This document shows, piece by piece, positions 38,560 to 45,003 of a DNA stretch of 64,000 nucleotides. The translations under genes were made by a program, and so were the position numbers. Within the stretch, counting starts at the first letter, position 1, and the number at the start of each line of letters is the position of its first letter. Origin of the DNA: Pseudomonadota bacterium (GTDB taxonomy: Bacteria; Desulfobacterota; Desulfobulbia; Desulfobulbales; Desulfurivibrionaceae). The notes below the pieces were generated by a model that did no database searches, was not told the DNA's origin, and worked only from the letters and a program-made list of their open reading frames with translations. The stretch is from contig JAHJRQ010000015.1 in the NCBI GenBank assembly GCA_018830485.1, positions 310,001-374,000 on the forward strand, given 5' to 3'.

Positions 38560-40946
<2,387 letters not shown>

Positions 40947-41035
40947 CCCCTCATCTTTTTTCGTAACCGTTCAGAGATTGAGCCACGTTTTTCACGTTCC
41001 CGGTGAATGCATACCTTTTTTCAACGAAAAATCCC

Positions 41036-41135
41036 TTTGCAAAGAAAAAGTTTTTTTGTATGATTTGTAGTTTGGCCCAACCAGAGGGAGGCAGTGTCCG
41101 CCGCCCACTGGCAATGGTTGGGCTGACATTTTTTT
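41036..41135 (+). promoter_or_regulatory. argF promoter and structured leader
   Basis: TTTGCA (41036-41041), 17 bp, TATGAT (41059-41064) is a good sigma-70-type promoter inside the 289-bp argD-argF gap. Just after the expected start is GCCCAACC (41075-41082) / GGTTGGGC (41116-41123), enclosing an inner stem CAGTG/CACTG (41092-41096, 41106-41110). Seven Ts at 41129-41135 follow 5 nt later. This could be an attenuator or an ncRNA leader ahead of argF-argG. Confidence 0.6.
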
Positions 41136-41235
41136 GAGCCGGCCTTCTGAATCCTGCCGCAGTGTGCCGCCGGCAGGACCCTGAGCTACTTGCCGCGGTT
41201 TCATGTGCAGAAGGGCTGGCAGAGAGAACAACACA

Positions 41236-42147
41236 ATGACACAGCATCTACTGGCATTGCAGGACTTCAGCAAGGGGCAGCTTGGCGCCTACATCGAAAA
41301 GGGGCTGCTCCTTAAAAAAGAAGCCAAGGCAGGAATCCGCAACCAGCAATTGGCCGGAAAAACCGTGGCCCTCATCTTTGAAAAGCCCTCCACCCGGACC
41401 AGAGTCTCCTTTGAGTCGGCCATGTATGGCCTGGGCGGCCAGGTGATCTACCTCTCCGGCCGGGACACCCAACTGGCGCGCAACGAACCCCTCAAGGATA
41501 TGGCCCGGGTAATGGCCCGCTATGTGGACGGCATGGTGGTCCGCACCTACGGCCAGGCCATTGTCGATGAGCTGGCCGGATATTCCTCGGTGCCGGTGAT
41601 CAACGCCCTCACCGACCTGCACCATCCCTGCCAGGTGCTGAGCGACATCATGACCGTGATCGAGCACAAGGGGGAGGTGGAAAAGCTCCACATCGCCTGG
41701 CTGGGCGACGGCAACAACATGGCCAACTCCTGGATTCAGGCTGCGGCCCGCTTCGGCTTTTCCCTGACCCTGGCCTGCCCGGCGGGCTATGATCCCAACC
41801 CCGCCATTCTCGCCGCAGCCCAGGCCGTGGCAAGCAAGCCCATCCGGGTGGTGCGCGACCCGGCGGAAGCAGTGCGGGAGGCGGATGTGATCAACACCGA
41901 TGTCTGGGCCAGCATGGGCCAGGAGTCCGAGCAGGAAGAACGGATCGGAGTGTTCCGTCCGTATCAGGTGAATGCTGCCCTGGTGGCCCAGGCCCGGCCG
42001 GGGGCCATTGTCCTCCACTGCCTGCCTGCCCACCGCGACGAGGAGATCTCCGAAGAGGTATTGGAGGGTCCGCAATGCGTGGCCTTTGACCAGGCGGAGA
42101 ACAAGCTCCATATCCACAAGGCCATTCTGGCCATACATCTGGCTTAA
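41236..42147 (+). CDS. argF: Ornithine carbamoyltransferase
   Basis: 303 aa from ATG at 41236. Carbamoyl-phosphate loop EKPSTRTRVSFESAM, HPCQVLSDIMT (catalytic), and the ornithine-binding VLHCLPAHRDEEI are intact. It makes citrulline. It is preceded by its own promoter and structured leader and followed 39 bp later by argG. Confidence 0.95.
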   Translation: MTQHLLALQDFSKGQLGAYIEKGLLLKKEAKAGIRNQQLAGKTVALIFEKPSTRTRVSFESAMYGLGGQVIYLSGRDTQLARNEPLKDMARVMARYVDGMVVRTYGQAIVDELAGYSSVPVINALTDLHHPCQVLSDIMTVIEHKGEVEKLHIAWLGDGNNMANSWIQAAARFGFSLTLACPAGYDPNPAILAAAQAVASKPIRVVRDPAEAVREADVINTDVWASMGQESEQEERIGVFRPYQVNAALVAQARPGAIVLHCLPAHRDEEISEEVLEGPQCVAFDQAENKLHIHKAILAIHLA

Positions 42148-42186: not shown

Positions 42187-43395
42187 ATGGCTGCCAACAT
42201 AAACAAGATCGTTCTCGCCTATTCCGGCGGGCTGGACACCTCGGTTATCCTCAAGTGGCTGCGGGAAGAGTATCAGGTTCCCGTGGTGGCCTTTGCCGCC
42301 GATGTGGGCCAGGAGGAGGACTGGGATAAGGTCCGGGCCAAGGGCATGGCCACCGGCGCCGAGAAGGTGATCATCTCCGATCTGCGCGAGGAGTTTGTCC
42401 GCGACTATGTCTTTCCGGCCTTCCGGGCCAATGCCATCTACGAGGGCTCCTACCTCTTGGGCACCTCCCTGGCCCGACCGGTCATCGCCCGGGAACAGGT
42501 GCGCATCGCCGAGGCGGAAGGCGCCGACGCCGTGAGCCACGGCGCCACGGGCAAGGGCAACGATCAGGTCCGCTTCGAGCTGACCTATCTGGCCTTAAAC
42601 CCCAGGCTGACCATCATCGCCCCCTGGCGGATCTGGGATCTCAACTCCCGGACCAAGCTCATGGCCTATGCGGAAAAGCACGCCATCCCCGTACCGGTGA
42701 CCAAGGAGAAGCCTTACAGCTCCGACGAAAATCTGCTGCACATCAGCTTTGAGGGCGGCATCCTGGAAGATCCGTGGAACGAGCCGGAGGAGTCCATGTT
42801 CAAGCTCTCCGTCTCCCCGGAAAAGGCCCCGGATGTACCGACCTATATCGAGATGGAATTCGCGCAAGGCAACCCGGTGGCCATCAACGGCGAGAAGCTC
42901 AGCCCGGCGGCCATGCTGGCCCGGTTGAACGCCCTGGGCGGCGCCAACGGCATCGGCAGGCTGGACATGGTGGAGAACCGCTTCGTGGGCATGAAATCCC
43001 GCGGGGTGTACGAAACCCCGGGCGGCACCATATTGCGCGCGGCACACCGCGATCTGGAAACCATCACCCTGGACCGCGAGGTCATGAAGATCCGCGACAG
43101 CCTGATCCCCCGCTATGCCGAACTGGTCTACAACGGCTTCTGGTTCTCGCCGGAGATGAAGCTCCTGCAAAAGACCATGGACAACGCGCAGGAAACCGTA
43201 AACGGCGTGGTGCGCCTCAAGCTGATCAAGGGCAACTGCATCCCGGTGGGCCGCAAATCCGATCAGTCGCTCTACCAGGAAAGCTTTGCCACCTTTGAGG
43301 AAGACCAGGTCTACACCCAGTCGGATGCCGGCGGCTTTATCCGCCTCAACGCCCTGCGGTTGACCATCCAGGCCCTGGTGGAAAAGAAGAGGTAA
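42187..43395 (+). CDS. argG: Argininosuccinate synthase
   Basis: 402 aa. The N-type ATP pyrophosphatase loop [17 protein letters not shown] is at the start; [16 protein letters not shown] binds citrulline and aspartate. It couples citrulline and aspartate using ATP. The stop TAA lies inside the left arm of structured element copy C, which therefore separates argG from argH. Confidence 0.96.
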
Positions 43396-43596: not shown

Positions 43597-45003
43597 ATGT
43601 CTTCGGCAGGAAACACCCATAACCCGGCACTGTGGGGCGGCAGGTTCGCGGAAAAGACCGCCGCCTCGGTGGCGGCCTTCACCGCCTCCATCCACTACGA
43701 CGCCAGGCTGTACAGGCATGACATCGCCGGCAGCCGGGCCCACGCCAAGATGCTTGCCAAGCAGGGTTTGATCAGCGCCAAGGAACGCGACCAGATCGTC
43801 AAGGGGTTAGGCCAGATCGAGCGCGAGATCGAGGCTGGCACCTTTGTCTTTCGGCCGGAGCTGGAAGATATTCACATGAATATCGAAAAGACGCTGGTGG
43901 AAAAGATCGGCCCGGCCGGAGAAAAGCTGCACACCGCCCGCAGCCGCAACGACCAGGTGGCCCTGGATGTGCGCCTCTATCTTCGGGAGGAATGCCGCAA
44001 CCTCATCGAGCTGCTCGCCGGGCTGCAAAAAGCCTGCGTGGTGCTGGCCCGCAAATACCAGCATGCGGTGATGCCCGGCTACACCCACCTGCAGCGGGCG
44101 CAGCCGGTTTTGGTGGCGCACCACCTGCTGGCCTACTACGAGATGTTCGGCCGCGACCGGGAGCGGTTCAGCGATGCCTTGAAGCGGATCAATGTCATGC
44201 CCCTGGGCGCCGCAGCCCTGGCCGGAACCGGCTTGCCCATCGACCGCGAGTTTGTTGCCAAGGAGCTGGATTTCCCCAAGGTCACCGCCAACAGCATGGA
44301 CACGGTGGGGGACCGGGATTTCATCATCGAGTTCATGTCCGCAGCCAGCCTGGTGCAGATCCATTTGAGTCGGCTCTCCGAGGAGCTGGTCCTCTGGACC
44401 ACCGAGGAGTTTTCCTTCGTCACCCTGGCGGACAGCTTCTGCACCGGCAGCTCCATCATGCCCCAGAAGAAGAACCCCGACATCCCGGAGCTGATCCGGG
44501 GCAAGAGCGGCAGGGTGGTGGGCAACCTTATGAGCCTCCTGATGCTGCTCAAGGGCTTGCCCATGACCTACAACCGCGACCTCCAGGAAGACAAGGAGCC
44601 CCTGTTCGACACGGTGGATACGGTTTCCCAGTCCGTGGCGATCATGGCCCAGTTGCTCGGCAACCTGAAGTTCAACGAGGCGCGGCTGGCCAAAGGCCTT
44701 GGCGGCGGCTATATGACCGCCACCGACCTGGCGGATTATCTGGTGCGCAAGAACATCCCCTTCCGCCAGGCCCACGCCATTGTCGGCCGCACCGTGGCAT
44801 ATGCCATCGACAAGGGCAAGGAACTCACTGAGTTGAAGCTGGCGGAGTTGCAAAAATTCTCCGAGGTCATCGAGGGAGATGTTTTCAAGGTGCTCTCCAT
44901 CGAGGGCTCGGTTGCGAGCAGAATCTCCCTGGGCGGCACCTCGGGCAAGATGGTGGCCAAGGCCTTGAAACGGGCGGAAAAAGAGATGGGGATAACGGCA
45001 TGA
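43597..45003 (+). CDS. argH: Argininosuccinate lyase
   Basis: 468 aa. [20 protein letters not shown], the [12 protein letters not shown] loop, [11 protein letters not shown] (active-site His) and [17 protein letters not shown] (catalytic Ser loop) are all present. It completes arginine synthesis, releasing fumarate. It overlaps the following lipoprotein gene by 4 bp (ATGA). Confidence 0.96.

Follow-up and report, generated by a model that had tools for sequence, protein, structure and literature searches.

In the window, by which we mean the whole 64,000-nucleotide stretch of a Desulfurivibrionaceae genome analysed here, genes of arginine biosynthesis lie in the order argB, argD, leader, argF, argG and argH. 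Why should argF have a leader of its own within this series, and what would such a leader do? The preliminary description, made from the letters of the window, proposed a separate promoter between argD and argF, followed by a two-tier stem and a T7 tract, and suggested that the segment could be an attenuator, a riboswitch-like leader or a small RNA. The observation of a promoter and a structured hairpin leader ahead of argF is real and is confirmed here. The features used in the following argument are listed below.

38869-39747: argB; open reading frame, named by recognition of its translation
about 39747-40946: argD; open reading frame, named by recognition of its translation
41036-41064, + strand: argF promoter from the promoter scan; −35 TTTGCA at 41036-41041, 17-nt spacer, −10 TATGAT at 41059-41064
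41070-41073, + strand: predicted start region GTTT; TTT occurs near this distance from the −10 box in placed promoters
41074-41124, + strand: 5'-terminal hairpin; outer stem 41074-41082 with 41116-41124
41086-41092 with 41100-41106, + strand: inner stem GGGaGGC/GCCgCCC, the genus-level inner helix, from the minimum-energy fold and the 12-member genus alignment
41129-41135, + strand: T7 run, 4 nt past the stem and followed by G (41136); proposed pause or partial termination zone 41129-41136
41130-41228, + strand: genus-only second structure (RNAalifold, 12 genus members); 41130-41135 (U-run) with 41223-41228 and 41138-41146 with 41212-41220, enclosing a hairpin at 41152-41178
41236-42147, + strand: argF, ornithine carbamoyltransferase, the gene served by the leader; open reading frame with an internal ATG as start, OTCace_N match over the cut-off
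42187-43395: argG; open reading frame, named by recognition of its translation
43597-45003: argH; open reading frame, named by recognition of its translation

A promoter scan of 6 kb returned 5 promoter-like sites, against 1.5 expected from shuffles, and two of the five are the argF promoter in two registers. The promoter claimed earlier (TTTGCA-17-TATGAT) is thus recovered by the scan, and it is kept in relatives. Our comparative set comprised 81 argF upstream regions, namely the window and the best 80 loci encoding relatives of the window ArgF. A promoter, consisting of a TTTGCAA-like −35 box (one of nine variants) and a −10 box, could be placed in 64 of these regions, the 17 unplaced ones being excluded. 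Of the 64 placed promoters, 59 have a TTT close to the predicted start, versus 481 of 1546 12-nt windows from the same regions, a difference that does not translate into a probability because the loci are related. From this pattern, we infer that the argF transcript starts at the T-run, at about 41070. In some relatives (L025, L033, L040, L044 and L059), an inverted repeat of the GAGCCCACAGAG/CTCTGTGGGCTC kind was noticed between the argF promoter, with its TTCCCAAA-type −35 box, and the gene.

Downstream of the predicted start, the GCCCAACC/GGTTGGGC arms of the proposed stem were found at 41075-41082 with 41116-41123, and one further base pair extends this outer stem. The outer tier of the two-tier stem is therefore present as described. 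The CAGTG/CACTG arms assigned to the inner tier also exist, at 41092-41096 and 41106-41110, but they are displaced by the conserved GGG-GGC type helix, which both the minimum-energy fold and the genus alignment favour. In the 12-member genus alignment, this inner helix (helix 3) is 91.7% paired, with two-sided change in two of its seven pairs. The T7 tract was located at 41129-41135. Folding of the window sequence is modestly above that of shuffled sequence (z of −1.52 over 71 nt and −2.15 over 173 nt), and a terminator scan gave 7 sites against 6.3 expected, with the argF-leader hairpin absent from the list. It is conservation, and not window folding alone, that raises the window element above chance. 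A short open reading frame running from an ATG at 41114 into the T-run was discarded, as it is not kept in relatives (by eye). A dispersed-repeat reading was likewise rejected; the own genome holds no other copy of the window element, and the 11 other matches span 14-27 nt, none with an E value below 1.58. The idea that GCCCAAC/GTTGGGC might be an integron attC-like site was also abandoned, given that covariation, single copy and argF linkage explain the element better.

Comparison upstream of argF in relatives bore out the conservation of this leader. The covariance model R1 was made from 26 hairpins (alignment A2, i.e. the 28 matched sources among the 81, minus L010 and L039, which are near copies of L009 and L038) and was searched against 146 genomes belonging to the order Desulfobulbales. 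It matched 45 of the 146, exactly once each, in 18 of 54 genera, and in all 45 cases argF lies downstream on the same strand, 0-145 nt from the match end. Under the stricter filters of this search and of a second one over a phylum sample of 247 genomes (at least 10 of them in this order, ~237 outside), with which weak matches can be lost, R1 had no match in 101 of the 146 genomes, including 5 of the 17 of the same genus, and matched only the own genome in the phylum sample. Within the own genome, where the sequences ahead of pyrB and carA were also read, there was no R1 match besides that at argF. In the window, as in 37 of the 45 matched genomes, argD precedes the hairpin; in the other eight, no argD was found in at least 1.5 kb upstream while promoter and hairpin persist, which indicates that the element goes with argF. 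What had been described as a leader for the downstream arginine genes is thus a conserved structured leader with a separate promoter, dedicated to argF. The argF-only leader element is real and occurs in about a third of the searched genomes of the order.

In L012, where the hairpin is partly deleted, and in L014 and L020, where it is replaced, the promoter is kept and the ArgF protein is 91-95% identical to that of the window; since these are close relatives, the hairpin is not essential. In L032, L037, L049, L112, L114, L119, L125 and L131, 79-185 nt separate a −35-like box from the model match downstream of it, compared to 30 in the window, and the sequence inserted in these eight loci implies that the hairpin need not be at the very 5' end. 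In L119, L125 and L131, an insert separates the hairpin from the promoter; it looks alike in L119 and L125 and may be a separate structured element.

The stem itself shows the marks of a conserved RNA structure. Alignment A5, which was fitted to the model and hence leans towards the modelled structure, holds 46 members (43 distinct) from an input of the window and 97 of 154 loci; in it, the nine pairs of the outer stem are paired in 97.7% of cells, with 20 two-sided cells, each value being reached by 0 of 500 shuffles, while the three pairs with two-sided change and the nine pair types were reached by 60 and 45 of 500, respectively. When the partner is shifted by one column, pairing in A5 falls to 53-61%. 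In the MAFFT alignment A2, pairing was 97.9% and 11 cells had changed on both sides, neither value being attained in 500 shuffles, and the two weaker measures (pairs with two-sided change and pair types) were reached by 299 and 339 of 500 shuffles. MAFFT misregistered a C-run in alignments A1 and A4, and no pair counts were taken from either. Moreover, the stem sequence (consensus GGCUCAAUC/GAUUGGGCC) is conserved across families beyond what pairing needs. The loop varies freely in A2, neither its length nor its sequence being conserved outside the genus; the loop of L081 is of 5 nt and closed by a bare 9-bp stem (z −4.48), and L050 has a long bulged hairpin (z −2.73). Within the genus, pairing of the loop with GGCAATG was noticed by eye, and covariation cannot test it because GGCAATG is nearly invariant there.

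In the genus of the window, the U-run takes part in a further helix. Among the 12 genus members, this second helix (helix 4) pairs the U-run and GCCGGYCUC with GAGGCYGGC and a purine-rich stretch, so that the partner of the U-run, at 41223-41228, is the purine-rich stretch before the argF start. It is paired in 98.3% of cells, and two of its 15 pairs are changed on both sides. For the whole 48-pair genus structure, drawn from 12 sequences that are close relatives, the pairing was reached by 1 of 500 shuffles, the covariation score by 3, the two-sided cells by 8, the two-sided pairs by 34 and the pair types by 110. The nine-pair outer stem of the hairpin is itself extendable, in the genus, by a U-G and a U-A pair. 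As modelled, the genus-only second helix could hide the ribosome site.

Several alternative readings can be weighed against this evidence. The segment might be a plain argBD terminator that overlaps the argF promoter by chance, which would account for its place after argD in most matched genomes; given that it is kept where argD is missing, sits after the argF promoter rather than before it, and has a poor terminator score, we regard this reading as scarcely credible. A promoter followed by a hairpin and a T-run would also yield a transcript of about 65 nt, as expected of a small RNA that acts in trans and has its 3' end at the T-run. Since compact loci hold nothing but the hairpin between promoter and argF, the same RNA is the argF leader, and with one match per genome and 45 of 45 at argF no trans-acting family emerges, so that the small-RNA suggestion of the preliminary description appears highly improbable. 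The single match per genome, its place at argF and the eight genomes without argD within 1.5 kb together favour a dedicated cis-acting argF leader over both. The riboswitch-like suggestion, i.e. an aptamer that binds arginine, ornithine or some similar ligand, is improbable to a lesser degree: the leader is dedicated to one biosynthetic gene, and the second structure of the genus involves sequence ahead of the start codon in its pairing, but the loop is free outside the genus, as in the bare stem of L081, and compact loci have no room for the genus structure, which follows the T-run. A search of Rfam 15 with 21 sources (the window and 20 relatives' loci) gave no family over the gathering threshold, riboswitches and the T-box included, except the window's two tRNAs; a known riboswitch is thus not supported, and no ligand site was identified in the argF leader.

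How, then, might a dedicated cis-acting leader work? Our searches revealed no member of the ArgR family in any of the 146 genomes of the order, the own genome included (E ≤ 0.001), with the control positive in 9 of 14 named genomes. A comparative study (PMC5343134) reports that gammaproteobacteria have kept ArgR and that the remaining classes it covered lack it. The leader therefore shares its target gene with the ArgR/AhrC control of arg genes, but stands in genomes where the ArgR family was not found. Comparison of sequences establishes a promoter and a covarying hairpin, whose matches, as far as found, all lie at argF, in genomes that gave no ArgR match; that polymerase pauses or terminates in the leader, and that this is subject to regulation, we infer. 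The best-supported mechanism is control at the transcript start by pausing or partial termination, with a protective 5' stem-loop as its main rival. RNA polymerase would start at the T-run, at about 41070, and the first RNA made would fold into the hairpin, with its GGCUCAAUC/GAUUGGGCC outer stem and a U-rich stretch usually 4 nt behind. Hairpin and U-rich stretch together would then cause polymerase to pause, or to terminate in part, before it has moved more than about 70 nt from the start, and this step would set the amount of argF mRNA in an order where ArgR was not found. We give about even chances to this reading, in which an argF-dedicated cis-acting 5' leader sets the argF mRNA level by pausing or partly terminating polymerase, and the leader may be how these bacteria control argF.

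The preference for pausing over ordinary termination derives from the geometry of the hairpin and T-run. With the d'Aubenton-Carafa d score (threshold 0; own implementation), only one of the 46 members scored above 0, and the window scored −9.4, whereas one control terminator, upstream of argF in L036, scored 32.2. The T-run has at least 6 T in 31 of the 46 and is shorter or broken in the other 15, mostly as TTATTT or CTATTT. The first TTT begins 4 nt beyond the nine-pair stem in 27 of 46 members and 7 nt beyond it in 15 of 46. From the stem to the first G after the T-run, the distance is 10-13 nt in 45 of 46, a constancy that may partly reflect the T-run end and the purine-rich ribosome site beyond. 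In a hairpin-stabilised pause, about 11-12 nt lie between the duplex and the 3' end of the paused RNA, and the next base is a G. The label of intrinsic terminator is accordingly weak for the argF hairpin, and a promoter-proximal pause or partial terminator would fit the geometry better. No antiterminator fold was found by eye, and no leader peptide with regulatory codons precedes the hairpin in the window or, by eye, in relatives, insert lineages aside; with only about 4 nt between the predicted transcript start and the hairpin, the window could not accommodate such a peptide there. The attenuator proposed earlier is possible but unproven: a promoter-proximal stem followed by a T-run stands ahead of one gene, as in the intrinsic-terminator attenuators of 5' untranslated regions, but the argF leader differs from these in its usual 4-nt gap between stem and T-run, its sub-threshold score in 45 of 46 members and the lack, by eye, of an antiterminator fold.

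Likenesses are also found among pause signals. Like the hisL/trpL-type pauses and the NusG-dependent TTNTTT pauses of B. subtilis, the argF leader has a near-5' hairpin, a U-rich stretch and, 10-13 nt beyond the stem, a G, and belongs to a biosynthetic gene; unlike them, it comes without a known leader peptide or binding protein. Compared with the NusG geometry of PMC12288461, which names N81 and T82 as the pro-pausing NusG residues of B. subtilis, its T-run is a few nucleotides more distant from the stem. At these motif-reading positions, two genus members have D-T (L156, from an alignment) and G-T (L164, by eye), and not N-T. The D-T of L156 aligns with the S-V of solved NusG chains, which we take to be those of E. 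coli. The genus members L156 and L164 have a housekeeping nusG; none was found in the 97.9% complete assembly of the own genome. The sole NusG-family match in the own genome (L155, contig C12:9129-9410) looks, by eye, like a specialised paralogue of the RfaH/LoaP kind. B. subtilis NusG assists terminators with weak basal pairs, according to PMC8060035, and such help would be one way in which a poor argF terminator could still work.

Two further readings deserve consideration. The 5'-terminal stem-loop could simply protect argF mRNA against degradation, and the AU-rich stretch behind it, being unstructured, would serve ribosome loading, with no need for termination or sensing. A near-5' helix is present at 67 of the 75 placed starts (the 81 regions minus 6 without a placed start) versus 53.2 expected from shuffles, with a mean z of −1.31 and z above 0 in 18 of 75; L024, L055 and Desulfocapsa-like loci, which have other leaders, still fold such a helix, and L028, L035, L055 and others have different folds at the 5' end. 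In addition, the outer stem is better conserved than the T-run, and the T-rich stretch of compact relatives (L026, L030, L043, L050) ends about 4-20 nt before the argF start codon. Protection alone would nevertheless not explain why a T-run of 6 to 8 T is kept in 12 hairpin-bearing genus members at a distance of about 100 nt from the start codon, nor why the stem is conserved in sequence and not in pairing alone. We consider this reading a serious possibility, though a distinctly less probable one than pausing or partial termination.

The start site itself invites another comparison. The argF product uses carbamoyl phosphate, and polymerase might slip on the T-run (GTTTGGC) at high UTP, tying argF to the pyrimidine branch that shares this compound. 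E. coli carAB P1 starts with GUUUGC and slips on the UUU at high UTP to yield non-extended transcripts, according to PMC6245113, and TTT near the predicted start recurs across different leader types. Among systems with start-site control by reiterative transcription, E. coli carAB P1 shares with argF a T-run at the start and a gene at the carbamoyl phosphate fork, and the leader of B. subtilis pyrG also carries a terminator-like hairpin. In pyrG, this hairpin is close to the start. Unlike in these systems, there is no apparent way for an extra 5' U to open the argF hairpin; three T make a weak slip site, and it is hard to see the use of making less argF when UTP is high. Furthermore, the starts are predicted, 17 of the 81 regions are unplaced and the loci are related. 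The likeness of GTTTGGC to carAB is therefore a lead and not evidence of slippage, and UTP sensing at the start appears unlikely. A somewhat more doubtful conjecture retains the pause: the argF transcript might sense nucleotide supply through its T-run start together with the hairpin and U-run, needing no repressor protein, with low UTP prolonging the pause, increasing termination and sparing carbamoyl phosphate for pyrimidines, and with AUUGGGC as the common contact of an RNA-binding factor.

The AUUGGGC motif, the promoter and the T-run start are common to the window type and to a second argF leader, found in Desulfocapsa-like loci among others, which has the form UUUCCCC...RGC-GAUUGG-GCY..GGGG followed by a second hairpin before argF. 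Loci such as L046, L060 and L074 have this type in the last ~90 nt before argF, with two hairpins and a conserved GAUUGG-type loop; of the 21 loci listed, 19 have 87-91 nt from TTT to the start codon. The covariance model R2, made for this type, matched 17 of the 146 genomes, 16 of them in one family; 16 of its 18 matches are at argF, and the other two (E 0.001-0.002) have neither argF nor argD within 3 kb. Neither R1 nor R2 matched in 84 of the 146. RNAalifold on an automatic alignment of the second leader (A1) gave no pairs, for which a misregistered C-run is the suspected cause; the structure is reproduced when three members are folded singly, though their z values of −1.20, −0.13 and −1.53 are unremarkable. 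In L051 (2852-3003) and L072 (2823-3003), long inserts lie inside the first hairpin and the CCCC/GGGG stem is kept.

Searches of an open-access library, at the level of its listings, and a term search of the main text of PMC2864571 found no earlier description of this leader; a table of PMC2864571 lists an uncharacterised motif, Desulfotalea-1, for Proteobacteria, without an Rfam number. If confirmed, the leader would represent an undescribed cis-regulatory RNA family. Its interest lies in being a single-copy, argF-only and directly testable leader at the branch point of arginine and pyrimidine synthesis, in an order where ArgR was not found. On the pyrimidine side, a T-rich upstream region and a GAGGC/GCCTC hairpin were noticed by eye ahead of pyrB in the own genome (L135).
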